Shown here: positions 21,714-43,000 of the stretch, one piece after another
Numbering within the stretch: position 1 is the stretch's first letter
Layout of the letters: the number at the start of each line of letters is the position of its first letter
DNA from: Methanosphaera sp. BMS
GTDB lineage: Archaea; Methanobacteriota; Methanobacteria; Methanobacteriales; Methanobacteriaceae
Assembly: GCF_003268005.1 (NCBI RefSeq)
Contig: NZ_CP014213.1
Location: 2,067,501 to 2,131,500 of the forward strand
DNA: 64,000 nt
Reading direction: 5' to 3'
Made by a program: the position numbers and the translations under genes
Notes under the pieces: generated by a model
Told to the model about the DNA's origin: nothing
Databases searched by the model: none
What the model saw: only the letters and a program-made list of their open reading frames with translations

Positions 21714-21715
21714 GG

Positions 21716-21729
21716 ATTTCTACAGAGCC
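21716..21729 (-). repeat. internal copy of the right terminal inverted repeat
   Basis: ATTTCTACAGAGCC matches the outer right end TTTTCTACAGAGCC (22416-22429) at 13 of 14 bases. It marks what was probably the original right end of the IS before the tnpB fragment became part of the mobile unit. Confidence 0.8.
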
Positions 21730-22194
21730 AGAAAACTATCCAAAAAAGAAATTGGCAGCAAAAACTACAATAAAATCAAAAAGAAGATAGCCCTAGCATA
21801 TGAAAAAAGACATAACATACTAGACTATCATTTCTATAAGATAGCACAACGATTAACAGAAAAATATCACATAATCTCTATGGAAACACTAAACATCAAA
21901 GGCATGCTAAAAAACAGCAGACTATCACGAAGTATACAAGAAAAATCATGGCACATGTTCACCAAAATACTAGAACAAAAAGCATACGAACACGGACGAA
22001 AACTAATACACATAGACCAATGGTACCCATCCAGCAAAACATGCAACAACTGCCAATACCACAAAGAAGACCTAACACTAAACAACCGAACATGGACATG
22101 CCCCCATTGTGGTAATAGACATGATAGGGACATTAATGCTGCTAAAAATATACATCATGAAGGATTAAAAATAATTAATCAAATACAATATTGA
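21730..22194 (+). pseudogene. TnpB C-terminal fragment (IS200/IS605-type)
   Basis: About 155 residues matching the C-terminal half of TnpB, the RNA-guided nuclease ancestral to Cas12. It keeps the RuvC-II glutamate region (IISMETLNIKGMLKNSRL), the helical IQEKSWHMFTKILEQKA, the zinc ribbon CNNC..CPHC and RuvC-III DRDINAAKNI. The N-terminal half with the RuvC-I aspartate is absent, so it cannot cleave DNA. The frame is open through the inner IS end from 21667, so a hybrid peptide is possible but unlikely to matter. It ends with TGA at 22192-22194, just before a G+C-rich segment that fits an omega-RNA. Confidence 0.85.
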
Positions 22195-25091: not shown

Positions 25092-25119
25092 GTATGATGA
25101 ATTTTAAAAAAAGTATTAC
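25092..25119 (+). promoter_or_regulatory. candidate operator, GTATGA-N16-TATTAC
   Basis: GTATGA at 25092-25097 is followed after exactly 16 bases by TATTAC at 25114-25119. The left half equals, and the spacing equals, the bacterial NikR consensus GTATGA-N16-TCATAC; the right half matches at 4 of 6. The site lies about 50 bases before ATG 25167, next to a TATA-like TTTAATATAAATA. A similar arrangement precedes the surface protein at 34702. It is suggestive only in DNA this rich in A and T. Confidence 0.35.
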
Positions 25120-25166
25120 AAATTATTTTTTAATATAAATACATGTAATAATTAGGTGTGTTAGAA

Positions 25167-25868
25167 ATGTTAGAAATGTTATGGCAATTGGGCGTGTTAT
25201 CTGCAGTTCTAATTTTTGGAGTAAAAATTGGTATGGCCATGGGTTTTGCAGGCTTGACAAAAAAACAGGTTCTTTTGATATCATTAATCAATGCAATTAG
25301 CATAATAATTTTATCAAAACTTTGTGAACCTTACACGGATCAATTGTATCAAGTAATAAATCAATATAGTTATGTTCTTTTTGGATTAATGGCTATAATT
25401 ATTTTAATAACGGGCATTCATACAGTTAAAGAGTGGAAAATAAATCATAAAAGTCATGCTACGGCAACATGTTTGGCATTGGTGGTACCATGTCCTTGTT
25501 GTATAGCTGCAATAATCGGTTCAATAATAATTGTAGCACCAATAATCAGTATATCCACAGTATTATTGGGAAGTCTATCTGCATTTTTATTGGTATTAAC
25601 TATTGTGATTGTTTATCTGTTTTCTGAGAAAATAGTCCGATTAATTAACAAACCATTTCCGATTGTACTTGGCAATTTCATGATTTTTGTAGGTTTATAT
25701 TTCTTAATAGCTATGAGTATTTTACCAAATTTAAGTAGGGTGTTATTGGATAACTATGATTCATTCTCCATCAGTATACCCTATGAGTTATTGAGGGTAT
25801 TTTCAGTACTTTCATTGGTAATTATTATAGCATTTATTGTCAAATCCAAAAGTAATTATTTAAATTAG
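25167..25868 (+). CDS. DUF2162-type predicted transporter
   Basis: A 233-residue integral membrane protein with about seven hydrophobic segments. The loop ALVVPCPCCIAAIIGS, with a Cys-Pro-Cys-Cys cluster in the membrane, and the glycine-rich FGVKIGMAMGFAGLT near the start fit the DUF2162 family of predicted archaeal transporters, which commonly sits beside ExbB-like and CobN-like genes. The cysteines could bind or pass a metal ion. The start is ATG 25167 with AGGTG eight bases upstream; an in-frame GTG at 25158 overlaps that site. The next gene follows after 10 bases, so this is the first gene of a four-gene operon. Confidence 0.8.
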   Translation: MLEMLWQLGVLSAVLIFGVKIGMAMGFAGLTKKQVLLISLINAISIIILSKLCEPYTDQLYQVINQYSYVLFGLMAIIILITGIHTVKEWKINHKSHATATCLALVVPCPCCIAAIIGSIIIVAPIISISTVLLGSLSAFLLVLTIVIVYLFSEKIVRLINKPFPIVLGNFMIFVGLYFLIAMSILPNLSRVLLDNYDSFSISIPYELLRVFSVLSLVIIIAFIVKSKSNYLN

Positions 25869-25878
25869 TGGTGATATT

Positions 25879-26526
25879 ATGTCTACAATGACGGCAACGG
25901 GATTATTAACTACAATCATAAATGTAGTGGCTGGAAGTTTGATTATACCTGTTTTAATATTATTGGTAATATTCATATTACTTGTTTTAATTCAGATAGG
26001 TGGACTTTTGGCCGAATATTCACATAGGGTAAAAATATCGGATGAGGAATTAAATTCAATAATTAATCAGATTAATGATTCACAAAACTCCGAGGAGATA
26101 CTTGATATAATTCAACAAAGTAAACTGAATAAAAACATTAAGGAAACATTAATAAAGGTACTCAATACTGACAATCTTAAACCAAATACAAAAGAGGCAT
26201 ATGTTCGTAAAATCATTGAAAATGAAGAGTACAACTATGCACAAACCTTGAGAAAAACCGAAATAATTACAAGGGTCAGTTCCGGTTGCGGATTATTGGG
26301 AACACTGATTCCATTAGGACCGGGACTTGCATCATTAGGTACGGGAGATGTTGCAACATTGTCCACGCAGTTAATAATAGCATTTAACACTACAACTGTG
26401 GGTTTAAGCTGTTCATTGGTCGCATATGTAATCTCAAAAATTAGAAAGATGTGGTATGGTGATGATATTGGCTTAATATACACCATAAGTGAAGCTATAA
26501 TGGAGGAGAACAATGCTAAGAGATAA
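25879..26526 (+). CDS. MotA/TolQ/ExbB-type proton channel protein
   Basis: A 215-residue protein with an N-terminal helix (about 15-45), a cytoplasmic middle domain, and two C-terminal helices. The signature GCGLLGTLIPLGPGLASLGTGDVATLSTQLIIAFNTTTVG corresponds to the pore region of ExbB/TolQ, with its Gly-rich turn and the conserved polar Thr residues. ExbB-like pentamers with ExbD-like dimers use the proton or sodium gradient to drive work in the envelope. Here the partner is the overlapping DUF2149 gene. ATG 25879 follows GTGATATT. It belongs to one operon with the DUF2162 and CobN-like genes. Confidence 0.88.
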   Translation: MSTMTATGLLTTIINVVAGSLIIPVLILLVIFILLVLIQIGGLLAEYSHRVKISDEELNSIINQINDSQNSEEILDIIQQSKLNKNIKETLIKVLNTDNLKPNTKEAYVRKIIENEEYNYAQTLRKTEIITRVSSGCGLLGTLIPLGPGLASLGTGDVATLSTQLIIAFNTTTVGLSCSLVAYVISKIRKMWYGDDIGLIYTISEAIMEENNAKR

Positions 26527-26821
26527 CAGCAGGTCTTTTATTGATGATGAAGAGGAAGATCCTACGGCTAGTCTTGTTAATATGGTTGATATAATGCTGG
26601 TATTGGCGGTGGGATTTTTAATATTGGCCATAACCGCAACAGGAGTTATGGACATGTCCTCGAATACTCAACAGTCCCATTCGCAGATGGTGGATGTGGA
26701 GGAAGGACAGGAAATACCGAATGATATAGAACAAAGTGACAGTTCAGGTTCAGGCTACTCTCAGGTAGGAACGGTTTACAAGGATCCAAAAACTGGAAAG
26801 CTGGTAATGGTGGACAGTTAA
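26513..26821 (+). CDS. DUF2149 protein, ExbD/TolR-like
   Basis: A 102-residue protein with a single membrane helix, DPTASLVNMVDIMLVLAVGFLILAITATG. The Asp in NMVDIMLVL lies where ExbD/TolR carry the ion-binding aspartate, so it should pair with the ExbB-like protein whose gene it overlaps by 14 bases. The outer part is short (about 60 residues), acidic and Ser-rich, ending in TVYKDPKTGKLVMV. That outer tail is where an ExbD-like protein would contact its client, here probably the CobN-like protein encoded 20 bases downstream. Confidence 0.82.
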   Translation: MLRDNSRSFIDDEEEDPTASLVNMVDIMLVLAVGFLILAITATGVMDMSSNTQQSHSQMVDVEEGQEIPNDIEQSDSSGSGYSQVGTVYKDPKTGKLVMVDS

Positions 26822-26840
26822 TATATGGTGGAGTGATATT

Positions 26841-29800
26841 TTGAATAGAAACATATTCGCGGATAAAAGAATCATTTTATTGTCCTTCACATGTATCCTT
26901 ATCTTTTCATGCATGGTCACGGTATCTGCAGATTCCGAATATCATAGTAAAGAGTTGGAAACAATAGATAATGGAACGGTCAGTGGAGGATTATATTCCG
27001 ATTCATACTTTGGTTATGATGATAAGCATATAAATGTAAACTATTCCAATACAATAAATCGGGTAAATACATATTCATCAACGGGGGATACTCCTTCATC
27101 AGCAGATAGGGATAATTCACAAACATCAACAGATTCCTCAATAAACACCAATTCAAATTCGGCAAATGCCCAAACAAGTACTCGGGACAATGATATTGAA
27201 GTCAAATTTGATGATAAGAACGTAACATACATCTATAAACCATTGGATTCCAATGCAAAGATAAAATCAGCACATCTGATGGTTGCAGTTTATATGGCAA
27301 ATATGAATAGGAACTATCCTGTTGACATGGAATTAACGTTCAATGGAAAGACATATGTGAACGAAACATTAAGCAGCACATACTCTAATTCAGAGGGTCC
27401 GGTAATAATCAATGATAATATTAACAGAGTTACAAGTGACTATCTGATACATTTCAATGTAACAGATAACATGGCATTAACAGGAAACTATATACACATC
27501 GACTTGACGAAATCGGAATCAGCTGTCGTTAAAATGGCTACATTGCTTGTAGCATATGATGACGATGATTATGACCTATATTACTATACGATAAATTATG
27601 GACATGATGTTGTAAATATCGAGGATTATACTTCTTCAACAAGATTCCAAGGAGTATACTCTGGTTCAAGGGTATATTATGCTAATTTAACATCATATTA
27701 TTTGGCAAGCGTAAATGCCGCATATAAATTCAATGGTAAAACTTTGGAAAATTATCCACCTCAAGGAGGATATGATGGGGTTTGCAGTTGGAACGTTACA
27801 AATAAATATCATGTGGGAACTAATAATAATGTCCTTGAATATTCAAGGTTAGGTTCATACTTTAAAATATTCGCTTCAACAATGCTTGTCAAATATTATA
27901 ACTCCAAAATGCTACCTGATTTAACTGTTGACAGTGTATATGTAAATCCAAATGATTATAAATATAATAATTCAGTATTTTTGGATGATGAAAATGAAAT
28001 AGTTGTAAATATAAAAAATACTGGTGCAAGAAAGGCAAATAAATTCAACGTATCCTTAAAATTAGATAATAATAAGTATACAAAAACATTATCTTCTTTG
28101 GATACCTTTGAAGATGCGGCCGTGGTATTCAATGTTGGATACAATAAAAATGTCAGCAACGTTAATCTGTCGGTCATAATCGATGAGGAAATGATAGTTT
28201 CAGAGGTATCACGGGTAAATAATATCTACAATGCATCATTCAACACTACATATACAAAATTCGCTGATCTAAACATTAGTGATATTGTACTTGAAGATAA
28301 TATAATACTCAAAAACAAGACTAGAATTAAGGTAAACATTACAAATAACGGTCTTAGAAAATCAGATGAATCAACTGTAAAAATATACATATCCGATGAT
28401 GTAACGAGAATATTAATAAAAACAGTTAATCTTGAAAAGTTGGATATAAACGAGTCACAGATTATAGATGTGGATTGGACTCCCAACGATTATGGATTGT
28501 TCGTACTTGAAGTTGTTGTGGATGAGAATATCGAGGAAATAGATTATGACAACAATCAATTGAATTACACCATAATAGTAAATAATCCTAATTTGCTATC
28601 CATATTTATAATAAGTGATAATTCAGGTACAAATTCCTATAATCAGGCAAGTAAAACTTTACTTGAAGACTATGCCGGATTGATAAATATACAAATCAGA
28701 ACGGATAACCAAGCCGTTACAATGTCAAATCAAGAATTAAGTACATATCTTGAATCTGCAGATATAGTAATAGCCGATTGGCTAAGTTCTGGAGTATATG
28801 AAAAGATTAATGCCATAATTAAGGATAATCCCAACATAATAAAAAATAAAAATAACAAAATATTCCTAATACTCGAACCGCCTGTATCTACAACGGCAAG
28901 TTCTGTAGAAATCATAAAGAATTCAACATTCTACATTAAAGGGGTAAACAAGTTATCCTCTTTAGCAAATGTGGGTATTGATGTATTATATGATTACTAC
29001 TTCAATACAACGAGGGGATTGAGCTATTCAAGTGTTTATGACTACATAAGCAATGTCCATGAAATACCTGCAATATACAATCAGGCAACATTATATAAGG
29101 ATTTAAGCAGTGTCGACGCCGATAGAAACATGATTTTATGGTTATTGAATTCCATAAATTCAAAAATGTTCAACAAGTCATACACCTTGCCTCCGGACAG
29201 GCTAAACACTCCCGTTTATGGTATTTATCGTGAAAAATGGTATTCCTCCTTGGATGATGAGGCTAACTGGATTGATGGTTATGAAGAATATGCAAGAGAT
29301 TATATCAATTCATCAAGACCTACAATCGGAATTATTGAAAGTAAAATGTATGTTGATTCACAACAACTACAACCATATTACGCCATAATATCAAGACTAG
29401 AATCATTGGGATTAAATGTCATACCAATAGTGGCATATGGTGGAACAAATGAACAACTGGAGGTAATGTTAAAAACATTTACAAATGCAAGCACACTTGA
29501 AGAATTGAATTCCGGAAAATGCAATATACGAATAGATGCAATGGTAAATATGGTGGCATATGGTTTGGGCGGAACGGACTTTGATAAGGTAACGCCATTT
29601 TTCAGCAAGTTAAACATACCTATACTCAAGGCAGTTCACTCCGATTACGTGTCAAATACAGAGTATACATTAGGAACAACGGGATTGGGTGCACTTGGAG
29701 GAGATAAATGGTGGCATATAGCAATAAGTGAAGCTCAAGGGGCCGTCACTCCAACATTTGTTGGAGGATATGCCTATACGATAGACGAAAATACCGGGGC

Positions 29801-32800
29801 ATCCATCAGCGGATATGTACCGCATGACGGTAATATAGAGGTACTGGCTAACAGTCTTTATAACTGGGCATTGTTGAAATACTTGTCTAATGAAGATAAG
29901 AAAATAGCAATATTGTACTATAATTATCCTCCGGGAAAACAGAACATAGCCGCAAGTTATATGGATCCGGTTGAAAGTACATTGAACTTACTGAACGTAT
30001 TGCAAGAAAACGGCTATGATGTAAAAAACATACCTAAAAACTCAACAATACTATTGGCACAGATGTTATCACAGGGAACAAATGTGGCCAATTGGGCTAA
30101 TGGACTTGTAGAGGTAATGGTAGACTTCAGAAATTCATCCTATGATGAGATATACGGTTATCAGTACAACAATACCTATAAAATAGATTTGGAAAACATG
30201 ACCGAAGAGGAGATAAATGCTCTAAAAGACACCCCTGGAGTACTGTTATATCCTGTAGCCGAATTTAAAAAATGGTACGATAAGTTGGATGATATTAGTA
30301 AATTGACAATATCCGAAGGACCTGTGGCATATATAGGTGAATACTCAAGAATTGCAGTATCACTCAACTATACCAACTTTACAGAAAACATCGACGACTG
30401 GTACAATGGGGTAAAGGAATTAATACCATCAGCAAAGATTAACTTGGTTCTTCCATTGATAAATAATATCACATCCCTTCTGAAGTCATATGTAAAAACG
30501 GCTAACCAGTCATACTATGAGGAATACCTACAACTTAAAGAGGAATTCCTATCATATAATATTGAAGGATTATCCGGTTGGGGAGAGTTTCCTGGAAATA
30601 TAATGGTAGTTGAAAGGGAAGGCATAAAGTACTTCGTGCTTCCTGGTATACAATATGGAAATGTATTCATCACGCCAGAACCTCAGAGGGGATGGGAAGG
30701 TAATGCTGAACAGTTATACCACAATACCATAGTTCCACCACACTACCAGTACCTGGCATTGTATTCATATCTACAAGAACAGGGCTATAATGCAATGGTA
30801 TTCATGGGAAGACATGGAACTCACGAATGGCTATCAGGTAAGGAAGTACTATGTTCCGATACGGATTTCACCACAATCATGACGGGTTCAATTCCGCAGA
30901 TATACTTCTATATTACCGATGGCTTATCTGAAGGATTAACGGCTAAACGCAGAGCATCAGCAGTCATAATAGATCATTTAACTCCACCGATGACACTGAC
31001 CAATCTTTATGGTAATCTTTCATATATCCATACATTGACTGAGGAATATGAAGTGGGGGATAATGATAAAAGATTAGAACTGGCTCAGCAGATGCGGCAA
31101 ATAATAATCGACGAAGAATACGATAAGGACATGCAGATTAACGTGTCTGCATTGGACGATGATGAATTGGTAGCACAGGTCAATGACTATATAAATAGCC
31201 TAACAAGTACATTATATCCTTATGGAGTACATGTAATCGGACAAAACTGGTCTGATGAAGAAATAGGATTGCTGGTTACATCCATGTTGTCCTCTGAATA
31301 TGAATATAATGAAGCTGGGGATACAACATCACTGTTAAATGAGATGGCTTATCTATTGGATGGTAAAGACTATGCTAGCTTAACGAATTCGAAAAAATCC
31401 ATAGCACAAACAAATAGTTTAAACTTTATAAACAGTTTGATTGTCAATGGCATGGCTGAAACACTAAGTAACATAACGGATAATCCATCAGAAGGTCTTA
31501 ATAAAACCTGTCAATTGGCATTAAAATACATCAATACATTAAAAGAAAGTACGATAAATGAGGTACAGAGCTTTTTAAATGCTTTAAATGCTGGTTATAT
31601 TGAACCTGGAAGTGGTGGAGATCCAATAAATAACCCTAAAGCAATTCAAACAGGTAAAAACTTCTATCAGGATCAATCCTCAGAAGTACCAACAAAATCG
31701 GCATATGAAAAGTCAAAAGACCTGCTGGACGTAACATTGGAACACATAGATAATGAAACAAATAAGATCGTGCTTGGAATATGGGATACAGAAACAGCAC
31801 GTGATGATGGACAGTTAATATCCCTCGTACTTAGATTATTGGGTATGAAACCGACATGGTCCTCTTCACCAAGTGCAGGAGCAGATGGTAAAAAATTAAG
31901 GGAAACTCCCGAATATGAAAAATTGGAGGACATGTACAGACCTGAAGGATATAATAAAACACGATTGGATGTTGTAATAGTACTTGATGGAAACTTCAGA
32001 GACTTATACAGTCGTCAAGTAGGATTACTAGATAAGGCATTTAGAATAGCACTGGCACGTTCATATGACACTATCGTGAATAATCAGACATTGATTGATG
32101 AATACGGGGATGATTTGTTTAAAGCCATAAATCCAATAATGGAAAATATCGGATATTATGGAGTATCATCAGAGTCCCTGGAAGAAAATGCAGTAGCGTC
32201 AAATTGGATTAGGGACTTTAAGCATTATATGGCCTTGAACATGACACCGGAACAGGCGGGCGAATTTGCCATAAGCAGAATCTTCGCTCCCCCTGAAAGT
32301 GACTATGGGGCATTAATCAGTCAGGCCGTAAGACAAAGTTGGACATTTAACGATACAAAGGATTTGGCATTAAAATACATAAATCGTATGGGTTATATCT
32401 ATTCAAGCACAAACTGGGGAACATATAACTCTAATGTATTGGAACAATTGCTCAACGGCACTACTTCATTATTCACAAGCAGAAACACAAACCTTTATGG
32501 TGTAATTGATAACGACGATTACTTCGATTACTGGGGTGGTTTATACAATGCTATGGGTTATATAAACAATAAGGACATCTCATTCAATGTTATCCGTTAC
32601 GGTGAAAATATAAACACATCAATAACGGAAATTGGTCAATTCTTGAAACGTGAAATGAACTCAAGGTACTACAACCCTCAATGGATTAAATCAATGATGG
32701 AACAAGATTATGCCGGATCAAGTTACATGTCTAAATTCGCCTCAAACCTTTATGGATGGGCATCCGTAACAGATAAAGTAACTAATAAGGATTGGGATAA

Positions 32801-34502
32801 CCTTGTAGGTGTTTATATTGATGATAAATATGGATTGGGTGTTAACAAGTTCTTAACGAATGGATATAATTCATATGCTATGATATCCATTACCGGAACC
32901 TTGCTAACTGCCGCTTATGAAAATAAATGGCAGACTGATGATGATACATTGAGAAAAGTTGCAGATATATGGGCTCAAAGTGTCATAGACAATGGTGTGG
33001 CCTGTTGTGACTGTAGTTGTGGTAATGTATTGATGATGGACTGGTCACTCAAATACATTAATCCCGACTTGATGAGCAGATTAAAGGCTAAGTTATATCA
33101 GGCAACACAAGATAAAAGATTTTATGAAGACGGATATGGTGAAACTGATAATCCTAACGGAAACATGAATGGTACAAGTGATGCTGATACGAACAATACA
33201 AATGATGAAGGTACAAATAGTACCGGTAACGCTACCGGTAACACCACCAACAACAGTACTGGAAACGGTACCGGAAATGCAACGGGCAATATGACTGATG
33301 TTACCGGAAACAGTACCGGTAATAGCACGTCATCTACAAATACTACTGATACTAATAGTAACACAAATGGCACTACCAACACCAATAGCACTACACATAC
33401 CAATGGCACTACCAACACCAATAGCACTACACATACCAATAGCACTACCAATACCAACAATACAAATACTCCGGATAATGGTAATTCCACCACTAATCCT
33501 ACACAAAATAACACAAATACAAATACGACAAATACAAATGCCACAAATTCAAGTGCACCCATAACTAATGACACGGTTCCGGCCGTAAATACTACAAATA
33601 TTACAAGCAACATCACAAATATAACAGATGTGAACATGACAAATGTAACGAATTCTACCATCAACACGACTAATACTACAGCACCAGTAGTCAATGTGAC
33701 AAATACCACCGTTCCAACTATCAATGATACAAACAGTACAAATGAATTCATCAATGTAAGCGATGTGGATATTACCAATGCAACTAATTCAAGTACAAAT
33801 GTAACCAATAATACAGGTCCAACAAGCAATATTACAAACACAACACCTACAAATACTACAAATCCAAATGAAAACAATGTAAATGTTACTGATAATGAAA
33901 ATAACACGGAAGTGGCAAATCAGACTACTGAAGTTGTCAACGATACTGTCGATGAAAAAGATGATGAAAACGTTAAGACTCCTGATACAAATATAACAAA
34001 CAACAATACAGTGGAAAATCAAAGTGTCGTTGAGAATACCACAGTACGAAATGATACTCAAACATCATCAATAAACAACACACACAACAGCACATTGGAA
34101 AATAGAAATAATACGGATGAGGTTTCATCAAAAAACAATGATGTAGATAATTCAGAAAGTAATCAAAATAGTATACCACCCGAATCATCAGAAAATGAGC
34201 AGCAAAATCAGCAAACAGATCAACCAGTTGACAATCAGCAAAATTCGGTTAATGATAATTCAGTTAAAGAAACGCCTAGTCCAAAGGTTTCTGAATTGAC
34301 AATCACCAGCCAGAATAAAATGGATTCTGAAGGCAGTACAACTGCCGCTACTGCTACTGTAGGTAAGATGCATGAGTTAATTACTTCAAAAAAAGGATCA
34401 GCCATAACGGATTCGGCTATGTCTGCTCTGTCAATAATCTTTGTATTGAGTTTATTAGTTGCAATAGCATATGGTTATTATAACAAAAGGAATTTAAACT
34501 AA
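26841..34502 (+). CDS. giant secreted, membrane-anchored CobN-like chelatase protein
   Basis: A 2553-residue protein starting at TTG 26841 behind GGAGTGAT. It has a signal peptide (KRIILLSFTCILIFSCMVTVSA), then a DUF3344-like surface domain (TIDNGTVSGGLYSDS; residues 40-350), then CARDB-like domains (LPDLTVDSVYVNP; 360-580). The CobN/magnesium-chelatase-H-like core spans about 585-2100 and contains FMGRHGTHEWLSGKEV, TPPMTLTNLYG and APPESDYGALISQAVR. A 370-residue Asn/Thr linker full of N-x-T/S sequons and a C-terminal helix (SALSIIFVLSLLVAIAYGYY) with basic tail follow. CobN inserts cobalt into a corrin precursor using CobS/T ATPases in the aerobic pathway; methanogens use other chelatases. 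An exported copy beside ExbB/ExbD-like genes points to capture, insertion or removal of a metal outside the cell. Confidence 0.88.
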   Translation: MNRNIFADKRIILLSFTCILIFSCMVTVSADSEYHSKELETIDNGTVSGGLYSDSYFGYDDKHINVNYSNTINRVNTYSSTGDTPSSADRDNSQTSTDSSINTNSNSANAQTSTRDNDIEVKFDDKNVTYIYKPLDSNAKIKSAHLMVAVYMANMNRNYPVDMELTFNGKTYVNETLSSTYSNSEGPVIINDNINRVTSDYLIHFNVTDNMALTGNYIHIDLTKSESAVVKMATLLVAYDDDDYDLYYYTINYGHDVVNIEDYTSSTRFQGVYSGSRVYYANLTSYYLASVNAAYKFNGKTLENYPPQGGYDGVCSWNVTNKYHVGTNNNVLEYSRLGSYFKIFASTMLVKYYNSKMLPDLTVDSVYVNPNDYKYNNSVFLDDENEIVVNIKNTGARKANKFNVSLKLDNNKYTKTLSSLDTFEDAAVVFNVGYNKNVSNVNLSVIIDEEMIVSEVSRVNNIYNASFNTTYTKFADLNISDIVLEDNIILKNKTRIKVNITNNGLRKSDESTVKIYISDDVTRILIKTVNLEKLDINESQIIDVDWTPNDYGLFVLEVVVDENIEEIDYDNNQLNYTIIVNNPNLLSIFIISDNSGTNSYNQASKTLLEDYAGLINIQIRTDNQAVTMSNQELSTYLESADIVIADWLSSGVYEKINAIIKDNPNIIKNKNNKIFLILEPPVSTTASSVEIIKNSTFYIKGVNKLSSLANVGIDVLYDYYFNTTRGLSYSSVYDYISNVHEIPAIYNQATLYKDLSSVDADRNMILWLLNSINSKMFNKSYTLPPDRLNTPVYGIYREKWYSSLDDEANWIDGYEEYARDYINSSRPTIGIIESKMYVDSQQLQPYYAIISRLESLGLNVIPIVAYGGTNEQLEVMLKTFTNASTLEELNSGKCNIRIDAMVNMVAYGLGGTDFDKVTPFFSKLNIPILKAVHSDYVSNTEYTLGTTGLGALGGDKWWHIAISEAQGAVTPTFVGGYAYTIDENTGASISGYVPHDGNIEVLANSLYNWALLKYLSNEDKKIAILYYNYPPGKQNIAASYMDPVESTLNLLNVLQENGYDVKNIPKNSTILLAQMLSQGTNVANWANGLVEVMVDFRNSSYDEIYGYQYNNTYKIDLENMTEEEINALKDTPGVLLYPVAEFKKWYDKLDDISKLTISEGPVAYIGEYSRIAVSLNYTNFTENIDDWYNGVKELIPSAKINLVLPLINNITSLLKSYVKTANQSYYEEYLQLKEEFLSYNIEGLSGWGEFPGNIMVVEREGIKYFVLPGIQYGNVFITPEPQRGWEGNAEQLYHNTIVPPHYQYLALYSYLQEQGYNAMVFMGRHGTHEWLSGKEVLCSDTDFTTIMTGSIPQIYFYITDGLSEGLTAKRRASAVIIDHLTPPMTLTNLYGNLSYIHTLTEEYEVGDNDKRLELAQQMRQIIIDEEYDKDMQINVSALDDDELVAQVNDYINSLTSTLYPYGVHVIGQNWSDEEIGLLVTSMLSSEYEYNEAGDTTSLLNEMAYLLDGKDYASLTNSKKSIAQTNSLNFINSLIVNGMAETLSNITDNPSEGLNKTCQLALKYINTLKESTINEVQSFLNALNAGYIEPGSGGDPINNPKAIQTGKNFYQDQSSEVPTKSAYEKSKDLLDVTLEHIDNETNKIVLGIWDTETARDDGQLISLVLRLLGMKPTWSSSPSAGADGKKLRETPEYEKLEDMYRPEGYNKTRLDVVIVLDGNFRDLYSRQVGLLDKAFRIALARSYDTIVNNQTLIDEYGDDLFKAINPIMENIGYYGVSSESLEENAVASNWIRDFKHYMALNMTPEQAGEFAISRIFAPPESDYGALISQAVRQSWTFNDTKDLALKYINRMGYIYSSTNWGTYNSNVLEQLLNGTTSLFTSRNTNLYGVIDNDDYFDYWGGLYNAMGYINNKDISFNVIRYGENINTSITEIGQFLKREMNSRYYNPQWIKSMMEQDYAGSSYMSKFASNLYGWASVTDKVTNKDWDNLVGVYIDDKYGLGVNKFLTNGYNSYAMISITGTLLTAAYENKWQTDDDTLRKVADIWAQSVIDNGVACCDCSCGNVLMMDWSLKYINPDLMSRLKAKLYQATQDKRFYEDGYGETDNPNGNMNGTSDADTNNTNDEGTNSTGNATGNTTNNSTGNGTGNATGNMTDVTGNSTGNSTSSTNTTDTNSNTNGTTNTNSTTHTNGTTNTNSTTHTNSTTNTNNTNTPDNGNSTTNPTQNNTNTNTTNTNATNSSAPITNDTVPAVNTTNITSNITNITDVNMTNVTNSTINTTNTTAPVVNVTNTTVPTINDTNSTNEFINVSDVDITNATNSSTNVTNNTGPTSNITNTTPTNTTNPNENNVNVTDNENNTEVANQTTEVVNDTVDEKDDENVKTPDTNITNNNTVENQSVVENTTVRNDTQTSSINNTHNSTLENRNNTDEVSSKNNDVDNSESNQNSIPPESSENEQQNQQTDQPVDNQQNSVNDNSVKETPSPKVSELTITSQNKMDSEGSTTAATATVGKMHELITSKKGSAITDSAMSALSIIFVLSLLVAIAYGYYNKRNLN

Positions 34503-34701
34503 ATTTTCCTTTAAATCCCTATTTTTTTTATTACTTTTTTTTCAAAAATACTCTAAAAAGTAATACTTTTTTTTAAATAAATATTAAATATTTATAAAAT
34601 CAACTACCATATATAATTTTAGAAGTGATAATTTTTCGTAATTTGGTATTACTTTTTCACTTCTACTTTAATAATATAACTTTAGAATAAAAGGTGAAAT
34701 A
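34503..34701 (+). promoter_or_regulatory. intergenic control region with palindrome and dyad
   Basis: The region before the 34702 gene holds AAAAAGTAATACTTTTT (34555-34571), a palindrome whose right half continues as GTAATACTTTTTTT and recurs inverted at 25106-25119. It also holds AGAAGTGA (34621-34628) repeated inverted as TCACTTCT (34657-34664), and GTGATA-N16-TATTAC (34625-34652). A TATA-like CATATATAATTTT lies at 34608-34620, so the dyad sits at the expected transcription start. GGTGA precedes ATG 34702. The upstream part also ends the CobN transcript with a T-run near 34521-34542. Confidence 0.5.
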
Positions 34702-37700
34702 ATGAATAAAAAGATACTGATGGTACTTTTTATTTCACTGACATTGATTATGTGTTCGGCAGTAGCCGCAGAAAACTTGACTACTACAGAACAAGGTGAA
34801 GTAAACGGTGGTGTTTATTCACATGCCGTTCAAAAAACACCCTATGGTAATCAACAAGCTGGTGGCAATTTAGAAGAAGTATCATTTAATATAACAAATA
34901 AGGAAGAATCGAACATAAACCCACAAAAAAGTGCAGATACGGGCACTCCCACAAATTCTTACAATACGGGAAGTGTTACGGAAACCACTCAAACAATCAA
35001 AGACATACAAAATGCAAGATTATACACTATGGTTTATGTACAAAGTACTAACAATAGATATGGGGCAGTAGTAAACATCTCTCTTGATGGAGATAATGAC
35101 GGATCATATGAAACTGTACTAGAAAACAATAGAGTTTTACAGATTGCATCCAGCCAGGATGCTACGGTTTACACAGTTAATGAAAACATCACTCGTGTAT
35201 ATTCCGACTATTTATTATCCTATGACATTGCAAACTATATCCATGCAGATACATTAAATGTCAAGGTACAGACATATAGTGGTCAAGATATGGGAGTAGC
35301 GGATGCAAAAATAAAATGTGTCGGATTGTTGGCCGCATACAATGTTGATTCATCAAATGAAAGATACACATACTGGTTCAATACTGGTCATTCATGGACT
35401 AATGAAAAATCAGAAACGACATTTGCAACAACTGGCAAACCTCTTCCAGAAACGGCAACATTAATACAAGTAGCAACATCATCAGCTAAGTCAGACGTAT
35501 ATGTAAACGGCATATCATTTGAATCTGAAAATCCTTCAGGTTACTTTAGTGAAAGTGTATGGGATGTATTGGATGTATATGATAATGAATCAGATGTTGT
35601 TCTTGAAAATGAGGCAACAGGTGGTTTGTATGGAGCTACATTTAAAACAATCGCCGCTACACTAGTACTTACCTATACGGAAACTAATCCTGAGCCGGTT
35701 GTTAAAGTAGATAAGGTTAAAGTGTCATCTAACGGTGGAGATGCATTGGTATATGTAACCAACAATATTCAAGCAACCCTAAGTAATGAAGGTTCACAAC
35801 TTGATAGTGCAAAATTAACATTAAATGTTGGGGACTTCTCACAGTCAGTCGATATAAGTAATTTGGATAATAATCCACAAACATTCACATTCAATTACAC
35901 TACTGATGAAAAAAATGATTATGAATTGTTCTTGGTATTGGATTACCTGAATGGTACGGTTGAAACAATCTATTCTGATAACTTAGTTGTCAAATACAAT
36001 GGTTATATGGGTAAATCATTCACCGGTGGAGAAAATTTCACTGAAAAACGTGAATACGAAGGATTAAACACATTGGTGATAATACCCGTACATGATTATC
36101 AATCCGCAGATTGGCAAATGGTCACAAGCACTATTAATGCTAGCAAATACGGATTGGATGATATGGAAAAAATTGTAGATATACTGTATTATCAACCATA
36201 TAACTGGGACTATGGTTATGTGATGAATACATATCAACTCTCAATAAATGATTTGGAAATCTCACCAATAGCCCAATATAATGATACAAAAGGATTTGGA
36301 AATCAATGGAACTTCCCATCAGGATTATTGGTATATAATATTTCAAATTACTTTAAAGCAGGACAAAACAATGTATTTAATATAACAAGACTCAATGATG
36401 ATAAATTAGCATTATACACTGGCTACATAGTGGCAGTATATGAAAACGCTACACAACCATCAATAATAAAAATTACAGAGGAAACCGACTTATTAAATAC
36501 CGAAAGTTCCGGTTATGGAACAAACAGTACAACAGCAATATCATATGCCGTATATGAAAACATAGATACAAAATACCTAAATTCAACAAAATTATGCGTA
36601 ATAACCGGTGCTGCTAACTGGCCGGACAGTAACATATTCCTAAATGATAAAAAATATGGTTCAATGTCTGATAACTGGAATACAACTCAACAAATGTCAT
36701 TTAGTACATATGACGTTGATAATTTGGTCAACGGAGAGAATATTGTTACATTACAAAGCGTAGAGGATAATCTAGTAATATTCAGTACAATATTGACAAT
36801 GACCTATAATGAACCATTAATAAATGTAACAAATCTTGGAGTAACATCCAACAGTAATAATTTCTTTGTCAACGTAAATAACACTGTTGAAGTAACCCTT
36901 AAAGCAGAAGGCAGACATTCACCAATTGAATTAACGTTAAAAATTGATGATGATGAATTAACACAGACTGTTGATGATATAAATGACATTAAAACAGTTG
37001 ACTTTACATATATTCCTACAAGCAACGGTACCAAGAACGTGGAAGTAATCATCAAATACCTAAATGACAGCAGCGTAAGTGCTTATACAGGTACATTAAC
37101 TGCTTATTATAACGGTTACATGGGTAAGTCATTTACTGGTGGTGAGAATTTCACTACTAAACGTGTTTATGAAGGTAAGAATACTTTGATTCTTGAGCAG
37201 TTTGATTATTATAATTGGAATGATAATTCTAGGGCGGTTTATGATGCTTCAGCTTTGGATGCTGGTAAGATTGTTGATGTCTTGTATTATCAGGGTTATA
37301 ATTGGGATAAGTATTTGAATTTTACTTTGATGGTTAATGGTGTTGAAAGTCCTCTTATTGCTAGTTATAGTGATGCTAAGGGATTTGGTACTTATAATTA
37401 TCCTAGTGGTGTGATGGTCTTTAATGTTACTGGTCAGTTTGTTGCTGGTCAGTCTAATGAGATTGTTCCTATGCAGGGTGTTAATAATTCCAATATACTT
37501 TATGGTGGTATTTTAGTTGTTGTTTATGCTAATAATACTGATATGACTAGTATTATGATTAATGAGGGTTCTGATTTGTTAAATCCTGAAGCTAGTGGAT
37601 TGACTTCTAGTGATTATACTGTTGCGTATGCTAATTATGAGGGTGTTGAATCTGGTGATGGTGTATTGTATGTGATTTCTGCTGCCAGTGATAAGGCTGA

Positions 37701-39591
37701 TGGTAGTAAGATTTTGTTCAATGGTGAAGATGTTGGATGTATGGCTGATAGTTATGATTCGGTTTCAAAACTCAGTATTGTGAAATCTGAAGTCGGTAAT
37801 GTTGTTGATGGTGATAATCTTGTAACTTTACAGAGTATTAATGATAACCTCTTTGCAATGGGAACAATACTTGTATTAAGTTATGAAGTGCCTAATGTTG
37901 TCGTCACTGACGTTAATGTCACTGCAAGTAAAGGTGATTTGCTTGTAGATACTGATAACATTGTCAGTATTGGCATTTCCAATGATGGTGCACCGTTTAC
38001 TGGTACTTTGAATGTTGATGTTGACGGAAGTGTTTCCAGTGTGGTTCTTGAGGACTTCGTTGGTTATAAAGTTGTTGACGTGACTGTCAATCCAAGTACT
38101 GTCGGTGCTAAAGATGTTAAAGTGGATCTTATAGTTGATGATGAAAGTCAAACATTATATGAAGGCACTCTTATGGCATATTATAACGGTTATAGGGGTA
38201 AGTCATTTACTGGTGGTGAGAATTTCACTACTAAACGTGTTTATGTAGGTAAGAATACTTTGATTCTTGAGCAGTTTGATTATTATAATTGGAATGATAA
38301 TTCTAGGGCGGTTTATGATGCTTCAGCTTTGGATGCTGGTAAGATTGTTGATGTCTTGTATTATCAGGGTTATAATTGGGATAAGTATTTGAATTTTACT
38401 TTGATGGTTAATGGTGTTGAAAGTCCTCTTATTGCTAGTTATAGTGATGCTAAGGGATTTGGTACTTATAATTATCCTAGTGGTGTGATGGTCTTTAATG
38501 TTACTGGTCAGTTTGTTGCTGGTCAGTCTAATGAGATTGTTCCTATGCAGGGTGTTAATAATTCCAATATACTTTATGGTGGTATTTTAGTTGTTGTTTA
38601 TGCTAATAATACTGATATGACTAGTATTATGATTAATGAGGGTTCTGATTTGTTAAATCCTGAAGCTAGTGGATTAACTTCTAGTGATTATACTGTTGCG
38701 TATGCTAATTATGAGGGTGTTGAATCTGGTGATGGTGTATTGTATGTGATTTCTGCTGCCAGTGATAAGGCTGATGGTAGTAAGATTTTGTTCAATGGTG
38801 AGGATGTTGGATGTATGGCTGATAGTTATGATTCGGTTTCAAAACTCAGTATTGTGAAATCTGAAGTCGGTAATGTTGTTGATGGTGATAATCTTGTAAC
38901 TTTACAGAGTATTAATGATAACCTCTTTGCAATGGGAACAATACTTGTAGTATCCAACCCAATCGAAACAACACTCAAAGTAGATACAACCGAATTCACA
39001 GCAGGTGAAAAAGCAACAATCCAAGCAAGCATATACTACGGTAACGCAGTATTAAGTAACCTTAACAAAGGTAAAGTATCCTTCAAAGTAAACGGCAAAA
39101 CACTTAAAGATGAAAATGGTAAAGTAATCTATGCAAAAGTGGTAAACGGTACTGCCAAAATAGAAAATTATGCTATACCGGATTCATGGATAGGTTCTAA
39201 CGCTGAAATACAAGCAATATACTCAGGATCTGTAGATTTGGATTCATTAAAAAGCGAAAAAGTATCACTTAATGTTACAACTGCCGCTCTAACAATCACA
39301 ACCAATGATGTAACTGCAACAGCAGGAGAAGATGTTAAACTAACAGCAACAGTAACGGCCGGAAATTCCATAATCAACAATGGAAAAATAGTCTTTAAAA
39401 TCAACGGTAAAACGGTTAAAGATGAAAATGGTAAAGTAATCTATGCTAAAGTAGTAAACAATCAAGTAACAGTAAATTACACATTGCCTGAAGATATGAA
39501 AGTTGGGGACTATAAACTAACTGCAGTATTCTTGGCTACTGGATATGATAGGGTTGAAGATACTAAAACGTTAACAGTAGTAGAAAATTAA
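34702..39591 (+). CDS. repeat-rich DUF3344-like secreted surface protein
   Basis: A 1629-residue secreted protein. A signal peptide (KKILMVLFISLTLIMCSAVAA) is followed by QGEVNGGVYSHAV, the same entry motif as the CobN-like protein next door, so both carry a DUF3344-like domain. Three long repeats begin NGYMGKSFTGGENFT or NGYRGKSFTGGENFT near residues 433, 803 and 1161; the last two are almost identical. The C-terminus has two Ig-like modules with FKVNGKTLKDENGK and FKINGKTVKDENGK, as in the adhesin at 8912-15859. There is no membrane anchor. Position and the shared domain suggest a partner or substrate scaffold of the CobN-like machine. Codon use changes sharply inside the repeats. Confidence 0.85.
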   Translation: MNKKILMVLFISLTLIMCSAVAAENLTTTEQGEVNGGVYSHAVQKTPYGNQQAGGNLEEVSFNITNKEESNINPQKSADTGTPTNSYNTGSVTETTQTIKDIQNARLYTMVYVQSTNNRYGAVVNISLDGDNDGSYETVLENNRVLQIASSQDATVYTVNENITRVYSDYLLSYDIANYIHADTLNVKVQTYSGQDMGVADAKIKCVGLLAAYNVDSSNERYTYWFNTGHSWTNEKSETTFATTGKPLPETATLIQVATSSAKSDVYVNGISFESENPSGYFSESVWDVLDVYDNESDVVLENEATGGLYGATFKTIAATLVLTYTETNPEPVVKVDKVKVSSNGGDALVYVTNNIQATLSNEGSQLDSAKLTLNVGDFSQSVDISNLDNNPQTFTFNYTTDEKNDYELFLVLDYLNGTVETIYSDNLVVKYNGYMGKSFTGGENFTEKREYEGLNTLVIIPVHDYQSADWQMVTSTINASKYGLDDMEKIVDILYYQPYNWDYGYVMNTYQLSINDLEISPIAQYNDTKGFGNQWNFPSGLLVYNISNYFKAGQNNVFNITRLNDDKLALYTGYIVAVYENATQPSIIKITEETDLLNTESSGYGTNSTTAISYAVYENIDTKYLNSTKLCVITGAANWPDSNIFLNDKKYGSMSDNWNTTQQMSFSTYDVDNLVNGENIVTLQSVEDNLVIFSTILTMTYNEPLINVTNLGVTSNSNNFFVNVNNTVEVTLKAEGRHSPIELTLKIDDDELTQTVDDINDIKTVDFTYIPTSNGTKNVEVIIKYLNDSSVSAYTGTLTAYYNGYMGKSFTGGENFTTKRVYEGKNTLILEQFDYYNWNDNSRAVYDASALDAGKIVDVLYYQGYNWDKYLNFTLMVNGVESPLIASYSDAKGFGTYNYPSGVMVFNVTGQFVAGQSNEIVPMQGVNNSNILYGGILVVVYANNTDMTSIMINEGSDLLNPEASGLTSSDYTVAYANYEGVESGDGVLYVISAASDKADGSKILFNGEDVGCMADSYDSVSKLSIVKSEVGNVVDGDNLVTLQSINDNLFAMGTILVLSYEVPNVVVTDVNVTASKGDLLVDTDNIVSIGISNDGAPFTGTLNVDVDGSVSSVVLEDFVGYKVVDVTVNPSTVGAKDVKVDLIVDDESQTLYEGTLMAYYNGYRGKSFTGGENFTTKRVYVGKNTLILEQFDYYNWNDNSRAVYDASALDAGKIVDVLYYQGYNWDKYLNFTLMVNGVESPLIASYSDAKGFGTYNYPSGVMVFNVTGQFVAGQSNEIVPMQGVNNSNILYGGILVVVYANNTDMTSIMINEGSDLLNPEASGLTSSDYTVAYANYEGVESGDGVLYVISAASDKADGSKILFNGEDVGCMADSYDSVSKLSIVKSEVGNVVDGDNLVTLQSINDNLFAMGTILVVSNPIETTLKVDTTEFTAGEKATIQASIYYGNAVLSNLNKGKVSFKVNGKTLKDENGKVIYAKVVNGTAKIENYAIPDSWIGSNAEIQAIYSGSVDLDSLKSEKVSLNVTTAALTITTNDVTATAGEDVKLTATVTAGNSIINNGKIVFKINGKTVKDENGKVIYAKVVNNQVTVNYTLPEDMKVGDYKLTAVFLATGYDRVEDTKTLTVVEN
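37105..38949 (+). repeat. two 771-bp direct repeats, 1074 bp apart
   Basis: 37105-37875 and 38179-38949 differ at only a few bases. They encode the same 257-residue segment. Codons within them end mostly in T (GGT, ACT, GAT, GTT), whereas flanking parts of the same gene prefer A-ending codons (ACA, GTA, GGA). The third, older repeat near 36000-36800 has flanking-type codons. The pair thus looks copied in from another gene and then duplicated, or homogenised by conversion. Confidence 0.93.
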
Positions 39592-40004
39592 ATAATTAAC
39601 TTATTTTCCTTTTTTTTCTTTTTTTAATAATTTATTATCTTGATGATAATGTATTTTAGCCATTTTTGAATATATTCTATTTGAAATTATTTGTTGGAGT
39701 TTATCCACATCATGATTATGCAAATAAATTTTAGAAAAATAATCCTCAAGAAATAAATGTAATTTAATTATGCCTGGCCATCAAAATATTGCCGGTTGTT
39801 GAAATTACTCCGATAATCATGAATGTGTTTTGACGTTAAATTAACTTACATTATTTTATATTTAAATTTTATTAATCCCATCTATATATTTCAACATCCA
39901 CCATTCATTTTTTTTATTTTCTATTATTTCTCCTCCTTTTTAAAATGTTATATATTATTTTAGATAAATAATCAATTATTATAAACCAATAGGTAGTGTC
40001 AACA
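39592..40004 (+). promoter_or_regulatory. intergenic region before the glycosyltransferase
   Basis: About 410 bases, A+T-rich, with a T-run at 39606-39626 that may end the preceding transcript and TATA-like runs near 39850-39890 and 39950-39970. No open frame with a start signal is visible. Confidence 0.4.
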
Positions 40005-43000
40005 TTGTTAAAGGAATTACTCAAAGATAAAATTAATAGTAAAAAACAGCAGGATGCAAGAAGACTGATAGTTGAAGGGAATCTATTCGACTATGAATAT
40101 TATATCAATCAATATCCACAAGTAACACAAGAGAACATGGATTTGCTGGATCATTACTTGGAAATAGGATATAAGGATGGTTTAAATCCATCAGAAGACT
40201 TTGATACAAAATACTATCTTAAGATGTATGGGGACGTACGCGTATCAAACATTAATCCACTCGTCCATTACGTATTGTATGGAGCCAAAGAGGGACGTAA
40301 ATGCAGCAGTAAATTAACTGATGATGAAATAAACACATATAAACAACTGATATATGACAATAACCTTTTCGATGAGGAATACTATTATACGCAATATCCG
40401 GAACTTAAAGACACTAACCTTGATTGCTTCACCCATTACTTGCTTGTTGGAGCAGATGAAGGGGCCAACCCCTCAAAACAATTCGACACTGTATACTATC
40501 AGATAAATAACGAGAACAAGATAAACGATGACATGAACCCACTGATACACTATGTAGTCAAGGGGATGGATGAACAGTTAAAAACACACCTGGAATTAAC
40601 TCAGGAGCAGGTGGATGCATGTGTACGTATAATCGATGACTCAAATACATTCGATGAGGAATATTACGTATCACAAAAAGAAGAATTAAAAAATCAAAAC
40701 ATCAACCTCATAGAACACTACGTTAAAGAAGGGGCATTCGATAGGTTAAATCCATCCAAATCATTTGACACATCAGTATATCTTGAATATAACCCTGATG
40801 TAAGGGCAAAGGCAAATAACCCATATGTTCACTACCTGCAAAGCGGTAAAAAGGAAAACCGTGTACCATTAAAGACAAAGAAAATGCAAAGACATGACCG
40901 TGACTATGAAAATTACATAGCCCACCAGGTGGATATCATCGAAAAGTCCGGATTATTCGACAAGGAATATTATCTTGAAAAATATGATGATGTAAAATAC
41001 TACCTAATAAATCCTATAGAGCATTACGTGACCAAAGGTGCATATGAGGGGAAAAATCCTTCAAAAGACTTTAATTCAAACTATTATCTTTATTATAACC
41101 CTGATGTCAAGGAAAACGAACAAAATCCATTGGTTCATTATATTACAGTTGGTAAAAAGGAAGGAAGAGGACGAACAATAAGTCATATTGTAAATAAGGA
41201 TGAAAAATACTATGAAAGGGAAATCTATGAAAAAACACGGGAATTCGGATACACCCAATACACCAATGCACCGATGGTATCCATAATACTCTTGAACAGG
41301 GATGGGGCACATCACCTAAGAAGACTATTCAAGACATTCAAACAAAGAACCACCTATCCCAATTATGAGATGATCATCGTGGATAACAATTCCACAGATG
41401 AATCAATCGACATAATCAACGAATACGCGGATGAATTAAACATCACACTAATACAAAACGAGGTAAACAGGAGCTTTTCATACGCCAATAATCAGGCAGT
41501 TGAAATAGCTAAGGGCAGCTATTTGCTGTTTTTAAACAATGACATGGAGGTATGTCCCGGATGGCTAAACCACCTTATGGACACGGCACTATCAGACAGC
41601 AACATAGCGGCGGTAGGTTCAAAGTTGATATATCCTGATGCATCATCATCAGTTTACAATACTGAAAAATCATATACCATCCAGCATGCGGGCATAGTGT
41701 TTAATCAGAAGGATGGATATGTGCGTCCATATAACAAGGATAACGGCATGCCATATGAATTTGAAGACAACACACCAAAAGAAAGGGTGGCAGTAACAGC
41801 AGCTACGCTATTGGTGGAAAAATCCAAGTATATGGAAGTCGGTGGATTTGACAATGAATATGAATACGGATTTGAGGATGTGGATTTATGTTTAAAGCTA
41901 TACAGGAAGGGATATAAAAATTACTATAATCCAAAATCAGTACTCTTCCACTATGAATTCGGTACACAGGAATCAAATGAACAGGACATTGTAAGAAATC
42001 GCAGAATAAGAAATAAGGAAGTATTTACTAAAAAATGGAACACATGGCTTAAAAAAGAAGTATTCCTCGATAAAATCAACAACAATCAATTATTCACTGA
42101 CAATCCATTAAAGGTGGGATTGGTCGTATCACAAAGGGGAAGAAATGTACAGGCAGGAGATTTCTTCACTGCACTGGGATTATCCGACAGTCTTGTAAAA
42201 CTTGGCTATAAAACAGAATTTCTGGCCATAAATCATAGTGAATATGAAAGCAGTGCCTACGAGGTCGACAGCGACATTGACGTTGTCATATCACTTTTGG
42301 ATAAATATGACATTAACCAGATAGAATCAGAAAACACAATGCTTGTAAAGATTGCATGGGTAAGAAATTGGATAGAAAGATGGGTAGAACAGGACTTCTT
42401 TGAGGACTTTGACTTGGTACTGGCCTCAAGTAAAAAAGCAATGGAATACATTAAAGAACATACAGGATTCAACCCAATACTATTTCCTATAGCAACGGAT
42501 ACCTCAATGTTCAACACAGATATCAAAGCCGTTGATGAGTACAGGTGTGACTACTGCTTCACGGGTAGTTTCTGGAATGCCGACCGTGATATAATCAACT
42601 GTTTAAGTCCTGATGATTTGGAGTATAGCTTTAATCTATACGGGGCCAATTGGGAAAAACTGCCTCATTTGAGAAAGTATCATAAGGGCTTTATCAACTA
42701 TGAACAAATGCCCCGGTTATATGCATCAACAAAGATAGTGATAGATGATGCAAATCACGTGACAAAGGAGTATGGATCAGTAAACAGTCGGGTATTTGAT
42801 GCATTGGCATCAGGAAGACTGGTAATTACAAACGGGGTGCTGGGAAATAATGAATTGTTCAAGGGACTTCTACCGGAATACCACTCCAAGGAAGATTTAA
42901 ATAAAAAGATAGAGTATTATCTTCAAAATGACGATAAACGTGATGAGTTGGTACTTAAATTACAGAATATGGTACTCAGTAATCATACATATGACATAAG

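Follow-up and report, generated by a model that had tools for sequence, protein, structure and literature searches.

HmuS of Bacteroidota is a periplasmic heme de-chelatase of the CobN family that works with ExbB/DUF2149-type partners, and its residue His538 is essential (PMC12583661). The hmuSTUV operon is under iron/heme control (PMC10434189), and PA1922-1925 of Pseudomonas, of the same CobN-DUF2149 kind, are under zinc control (PMC4542158, PMC9431628). A 2012 paper pointed out that Trichlorobacter (Geobacter) lovleyi CobN occurs without CobS/CobT and must have another role (PMC3403914), and the function of the methanogen CobN-like proteins was stated as not known (PMC12583661). Here we describe a locus within a stretch of 64,000 nucleotides (hereafter the window) of the Methanosphaera sp. 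BMS genome, which encodes a DUF2162 membrane protein, an ExbB/MotA-like channel protein, a DUF2149 protein, a large CobN-like protein and a DUF3344 protein (Table 1). An initial annotation of this DNA had proposed a surface machine in which an ExbB/ExbD-type motor replaces the ATPase of CobN. Since CobN homologues that are bound to the membrane and partnered by ExbB/DUF2149-type proteins have been described (PMC12583661, PMC10434189, PMC9431628, PMC4542158), the system is less novel than that proposal implied.

Our preferred explanation, which we hold with moderate confidence, is that the locus encodes a nickel-starvation surface system of methanogens in which the motor acts on the CobN-like body. 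Its firmer part is the nickel role, which shared regulatory sites make likely; for the action of the ExbB-DUF2149 motor on CobN we consider the chances about even.

The locus resembles hmuSTUV in that one operon encodes an exported, anchored CobN-family body, a multi-transmembrane protein of ~230 aa, an ExbB-like protein and a DUF2149 protein, with the catalytic histidine conserved and no CobST. However, the window has no TonB receptor, TonB or hemophore, no HmuY or HmuR partner was found among the open reading frames neighbouring the locus, and control is of the nickel type instead of heme/iron. HmuS lacks a cysteine cluster present in the window protein (see below) and has the motif LSLDHxxEFMGG, with His1209/Glu1212, in place of NDDYFDYWGG. 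The one HmuT sequence used showed no match to DUF2162, and membership of HmuT in that family is not supported. The window system is related to the hmu family and, by the tests made, not a member of it; we would class it as an archaeal variant, regulated by nickel, of the exported CobN and ExbB-DUF2149 modules.

Other described systems share parts of this arrangement. The T. lovleyi pSZ77/pGLOV01 cluster has the same DUF2162-ExbB-DUF2149-CobN order, a cysteine cluster, a CPxC motif and no CobS/T, but it also has cobalamin riboswitches, TonB receptors and an adjoining ExbB-ExbD-TonB set. On this plasmid the order TonB receptor-DUF2162-ExbB-DUF2149-CobN is followed by a separate ExbB-ExbD-TonB-receptor set, and therefore the DUF2149 and TonB motors are separate even in a Gram-negative bacterium. 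According to the papers' descriptions, PA1922-1925 (Zur regulon) share CobN-like, ExbB/D-like and DUF2149 proteins under metal-starvation control, but differ in responding to zinc and in having a TonB receptor. The CobNST cobaltochelatase and ChlHID have the CobN-Mg_chel fold and the HG motif, whereas they are cytosolic, AAA+ driven and biosynthetic and form a separate clade in our tree. ExbB-ExbD-TonB systems likewise combine an ExbB-like channel with a partner that has one transmembrane segment and a conserved Asp; in the window TonB is absent and DUF2149 replaces the ExbD domain. The exported CobN-DUF2149 systems may represent one kind of machine applied to different metals.

A signal peptide, an Asn/Thr-rich stalk and a C-terminal transmembrane segment are visible in the 2553-aa CobN-like protein, as the initial annotation had described together with the CPCC motif of DUF2162, and homology indicates that the body stands outside the cell on the stalk, held by the C-terminal anchor. 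The protein scored 410 bits against the NCBIfam equivalog TIGR02257, below the cut-off of 822. A PDB sequence search matched CobN (9uk9, 2.9e-79), HmuS (9d26, 3.5e-77) and ChlH (4zhj, 1.7e-75) with comparable strength. In a 47-row tree the cytosolic CobNs grouped together with a support of 100. The window protein fell into a 20-row group (support 100) with the bacterial L039 and rows of the Methanothermobacteraceae type; the tree was built by a quick method, and the exact placement of HmuS and ChlH, both on long branches, is unsure. His538 of HmuS aligned with His1325 of the window protein, so the catalytic histidine is kept. At a second site, His1209 and Glu1212 of HmuS are replaced by Asp1893 and Asp1896, giving the NDD/SDD pattern of cytosolic CobN. 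The cysteine cluster after the CobN domain reads CCDCSC in the window's group and CCHHTC or CCDHTC in other groups, and was not found in HmuS or the cytosolic CobNs compared. The initial annotation had also given this protein DUF3344/CARDB-like domains; a Pfam search found no domain in its N-terminal part. An entry domain common to CobN and the DUF3344 protein, also proposed, was accordingly not seen by Pfam in the window CobN; a home-made profile detected it on CobN in the relatives L017, L109 and L115 only.

Alignment of the regions upstream of three Methanosphaera loci yielded an inverted repeat with the consensus GTATTAC-N25-GTAATAC, which lies in the window upstream of the DUF2162 gene and of the DUF3344 gene. 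When the spacing was left free (20-32), the repeat was recovered mostly at the same spacing, with a peak at 25. With a spacing of 25 and at most one mismatch, all 24 sites in archaeal DUF2149 loci were located 11-221 nucleotides upstream of cobN (12), DUF3344 (8), DUF2162 (2) or FmdE (2), and 400 kb of random regions contained 0 sites. Six complete relatives had 39 sites, compared with 3 for the reversed pattern; nikA-like and cbiM-like genes were operator neighbours in 6/6, and hmd, hmdC and a heavy-metal P-type ATPase gene were also found. The genome of Methanosphaera sp. BMS (one contig, 2.87 Mb; the nearest relatives found are Methanosphaera) contained nine sites with at most one mismatch, two of them in the window and two by nikA- and nikE-like genes. 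Its cfbA gene has two weaker sites with two mismatches; at that tolerance the genome yielded 30 sites and the control 27, and little weight can be given to any one weak site there. The window units appear to have their operator in common with genes of Methanobacteriaceae for nickel transport and nickel limitation.

The nikA-like proteins scored 151 bits against the NCBIfam NikA cut-off of 393, and because they fall below it we only presume their nickel specificity; the CbiM-like proteins may transport either Ni or Co. CfbA, the known sirohydrochlorin nickelochelatase, is encoded in the genome (NCBIfam 2e-81), and hmd is induced by nickel limitation (PMC3087415). In Methanothermobacter marburgensis, nickel limitation raised CobN1, NikR1 and the transporter MTBMA_c10530 (PMC12350162). 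The CobN-like genes of this species are MTBMA_c10550-10570 (PMC3087415), which adjoin MTBMA_c10530. Genome G088 (L110) has, at about 0.98 Mb, the gene order FmdE-CobN-CobN-DUF2162-ExbB-DUF2149, operator-like sites with two mismatches upstream of FmdE, CobN and DUF2162, and three NikR genes. From gene order and numbering we infer that G088 is M. marburgensis, that its CobN is CobN1 and that c10530 is ExbB or DUF2162. We consider nickel likelier than cobalt because of hmd, cfbA and the nickel-limitation proteomics.

These data bear on the initial annotation, which had placed an extracytoplasmic CobN in a cobalt/nickel or tetrapyrrole setting. The setting is corroborated by the nickel-type operator, the cobalamin riboswitches of relatives and the nickel-limitation proteomics (PMC12350162), and the choice can be narrowed to nickel as the most likely metal for this clade. 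Metal-independent expression had been named there as contrary evidence; in the best-studied relative the opposite is reported, with expression raised under nickel limitation (PMC12350162).

The operator was also found at other kinds of genes. A perfect copy lies upstream of an acetolactate synthase gene in L175 (5251-5289), and the relative G075 has the same kind of operator between an acetolactate synthase-type gene and a nikA-like gene, on which ground the L175 copy may be a remnant. A GNAT acetyltransferase gene occurs repeatedly near nikA-like genes with a nickel-type operator (L174 4174-4310; L202; L208; L215).

The DUF2149 protein scored below the Pfam ExbD cut-off (0.018; 15.5 bits against 25.4). 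The ExbB core motifs GTLIPxGPGL and AFxTT are conserved across the four paralogues of the genome, and by homology the ExbB-like and DUF2149 proteins are predicted to form an ion-driven stator-type pair. An ExbB-alignment scan gave 581 relatives, the best 80 of which came mostly from Methanobacteriaceae, with some from monoderm Firmicutes and Actinomycetota; ExbB adjoined DUF2149 in all of these best 80. DUF2149 was present in 89/96 genomes of the phylum, and a DUF2149 query on plasmids gave no match. DUF2149-centred regions of complete genomes contained DUF2162 in 17/20 and CobN in 9/20 cases, compared with 0/20 and 0/20 in random regions of the same genomes; the ExbB-DUF2149-DUF2162-CobN arrangement is not due to chance. 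The partners of ExbB-DUF2149 in relatives were CobN, CbiM, secreted FmdE, FecBCD-type ATP-binding cassette (ABC) importers and other secreted anchored proteins.

The main argument that the motor acts on CobN is that there is no TonB and no outer membrane to serve: the TonB_C profile had no match in the genome, with the control genomes E. coli, Caulobacter and Bacteroides positive. The absence of an ATPase partner for CobN, as claimed initially, held genome-wide, with no recognisable CobS/CobT or ChlI/ChlD in a PF01078 search (the CobT/VWA profile was not run), which matched LonB, MCM and one 281-aa MoxR-like AAA protein. Both CobN proteins of the genome have a signal peptide and a C-terminal transmembrane segment, and no cytosolic CobN was found. 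Besides the window pair, the genome has three ExbB-DUF2149 pairs. DUF2162 and NosD-like proteins adjoin that of L012, and a secreted FmdE protein, CbiM and DUF2162 adjoin that of L013. In L014 (5906-11235) the pair is followed by an immunoglobulin (Ig)-like, Asn/Thr-stalked, C-anchored protein, and CobN and DUF2162 are absent.

The CPCC motif was present in 27/29 DUF2162 copies near CobN and in 0/10 copies near FecCD, suggesting a function together with the CobN body. The AlphaFold2 model of DUF2162 was all helical (mean confidence score pLDDT 81) and had no significant fold match in the PDB; a CcdA/LysE-type fold was rejected on this ground. The model of one DUF3344 domain was a beta fold. 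We rejected a NEAT-like heme domain for it, as only weak carbohydrate-binding-like matches with low template modelling scores were obtained.

We propose the following mechanism. The ExbB-DUF2149 motor would take over from the AAA+ ATPases of CobNST and drive the CobN-like body. As the body opens and closes, it would withdraw Ni2+ from a nickel complex outside the cell, which might be a tetrapyrrole (F430, for example, or products of its breakdown). The cysteine cluster of CobN and the CPCC motif of DUF2162 would pass nickel inward, either directly or to the co-regulated NikA-like/CbiM-like importers, and the DUF3344 protein may help in capture. That nickel is stripped from a tetrapyrrole is doubtful on present evidence. 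Less probable still is the most specific version, an ion-gradient-driven class I chelatase in which ExbB-DUF2149, instead of AAA+ ATPases, directly powers an extracellular CobN-type body that removes the nickel from nickel tetrapyrroles such as F430 set free by dead methanogens.

Several observations weigh against this explanation. The second histidine of HmuS is an Asp in the window protein, as in metal-inserting CobN. DUF2162 is a putative transporter whose model had no significant fold match, and the L014 motor pair is partnered by the Ig-like protein, not by CobN. NikR was present in 8/8 genomes tested, with one gene in this genome, and is a presumptive regulator of the operator. Furthermore, the wider family may handle cobalt or corrinoid, because the bacterial relatives are under cobalamin riboswitches.

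The strongest alternative, tentative in our view, overlaps our explanation as a version of the nickel role: a CobN fold that has lost its chelatase chemistry would only capture Ni2+ or a nickel complex outside the cell, with the motor gating release. No ATPase is needed for CobN and ChlH bodies to bind macrocycles, a cysteine cluster has been added to this one, and the DUF3344 repeats could serve as capture domains. However, the core His motif and the cleft motifs are conserved, and the one exported relative that has been tested, HmuS, is catalytic (PMC12583661).

Cobalt or corrinoid uptake, in which CobN would act on cobalt or cobamides outside the cell and the motor together with DUF2162 would import cobalt or corrinoid, is rather unlikely for the window system. 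Cobalamin riboswitches head 11/12 bacterial DUF2162-ExbB-DUF2149-CobN operons, that of T. lovleyi included, and eight of these operons came from searching 299 genomes for DUF2162 without selection; one operon lies within a B12 gene cluster, another includes a FecBCD-type ABC importer, and CbiM-type genes adjoin DUF2162 triads. However, the riboswitch-linked CobNs belong to other clades, with the CCHHTC- or CCDHTC-type motif, and L039, the one bacterial member of the window clade, has no riboswitch. No cobalamin riboswitch was found in the window or, among the loci scanned, at ExbB-DUF2149 loci without CobN. Operators of the nickel type occur in the window clade, whereas none lies near the genome's second CobN (CCHHTC).

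This second CobN (L004 9651-15251) is ~25 kb from the DUF2162-ExbB-DUF2149 triad of L012 (10245-11971), on the same strand and with genes for giant surface proteins in between; together they may be a cobalt counterpart. In Firmicutes, molybdenum riboswitches were found at ExbB-DUF2149 loci with a FecBCD-type importer (L078 3896-4021; L075 11515-11634), that of L078 upstream of genes leading into the importer, and the machine may also exist in a molybdenum or tungsten version.

It is improbable that ExbB-DUF2149 generates force for large surface proteins in general, in adhesion or wall remodelling, with CobN as just one client. The L014 pair with its Ig-like stalked protein and the L012 triad followed by NosD-like adhesins fit this idea, but the neighbours of most pairs are metal genes (CobN, CbiM, FmdE or FecBCD), and regulation is by metals or metal cofactors. 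The Methanothermobacter CobN-like proteins were once proposed as the nickel chelatase of F430 synthesis (PMC3087415), which would agree with the nickel-type operator; we rejected this role as highly improbable, given the secretion and anchoring of the protein, the presence of CfbA and a genome in which no ATPase partner was found.

Placement in a nickel regulon gives a direct test of methanogen CobN-like protein function. Methanothermobacter CobN1 has so far been seen only as a product of nickel-limited cells that lacked an explanation (PMC12350162). Methane-forming enzymes are limited by nickel supply. Organisms that lack TonB also pair ExbB-DUF2149 with CobN, which calls into question the view that HmuU/HmuV serve solely to energise the outer-membrane receptor. 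If true, an ion-driven chelatase would mean nickel recycling, by a machine found from archaea to gut Bacteroidota with the metal changed.

Table 1 Features of the CobN-like locus in the window (positions within the window).
Feature	Position	Strand	Evidence or remark
Operator-like palindrome GTATTAC-N25-GTAATAA, 1 mismatch	25113..25151	.	15 bp upstream of DUF2162 ATG
DUF2162 membrane protein, 233 aa from ATG	25167..25868	+	Pfam 5.5e-57; alignment-based start
CPCC motif, DUF2162 residues 109-112	25491..25502	+	Sequence
ExbB/MotA-like channel protein, 215 aa	25879..26526	+	Pfam MotA_ExbB 2.2e-8
DUF2149 ExbD-like protein, 102 aa, one transmembrane segment, invariant Asp26	26513..26821	+	Pfam 2.8e-15
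CobN-like chelatase homologue, secreted and C-anchored, 2553 aa, TTG start	26841..34502	+	Pfam CobN-Mg_chel 7.2e-209; PDB; tree
GRHGTHE motif in CobN-like protein, holds His1325	30807..30827	+	Aligned to HmuS His538
DNDDYFDYWGG motif in CobN-like protein, holds Asp1893 and Asp1896	32508..32540	+	Alignment
Cysteine cluster ACCDCSCGN, directly 3' of CobN domain	33000..33026	+	Sequence
Asn/Thr-rich stalk of CobN-like protein, about residues 2100-2450	33150..34190	+	Sequence
Second operator-like palindrome, 1 mismatch, upstream of DUF3344 gene	34528..34566	.	Pattern match
DUF3344 repeat protein, secreted, 1629 aa	34702..39591	+	Pfam 1e-98, 4 stretches

Pfam recovered the DUF2162, MotA_ExbB, DUF2149, CobN-Mg_chel and DUF3344 domains in the five genes where the initial annotation had placed them. 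The single five-gene unit drawn there was upheld for the first four genes, which are tightly packed (10 nucleotides between DUF2162 and ExbB, an overlap of 14 between ExbB and DUF2149, and 19 between DUF2149 and cobN). The DUF3344 gene, 199 nucleotides beyond cobN, has an operator-like site to itself and is probably transcribed separately. The DUF2162 ATG at 25167 is backed by alignment with two Methanosphaera relatives, although translation might begin earlier, at a GTG (25158). Elsewhere in the window, positions 20736-22194 hold a transposase-like open reading frame (325 aa) and then an overlapping TnpB-like zinc-ribbon fragment (175 aa), and just 3' of the locus (39996-43919) a glycosyltransferase-like protein of 1307 aa with repeated N-terminal modules is encoded.

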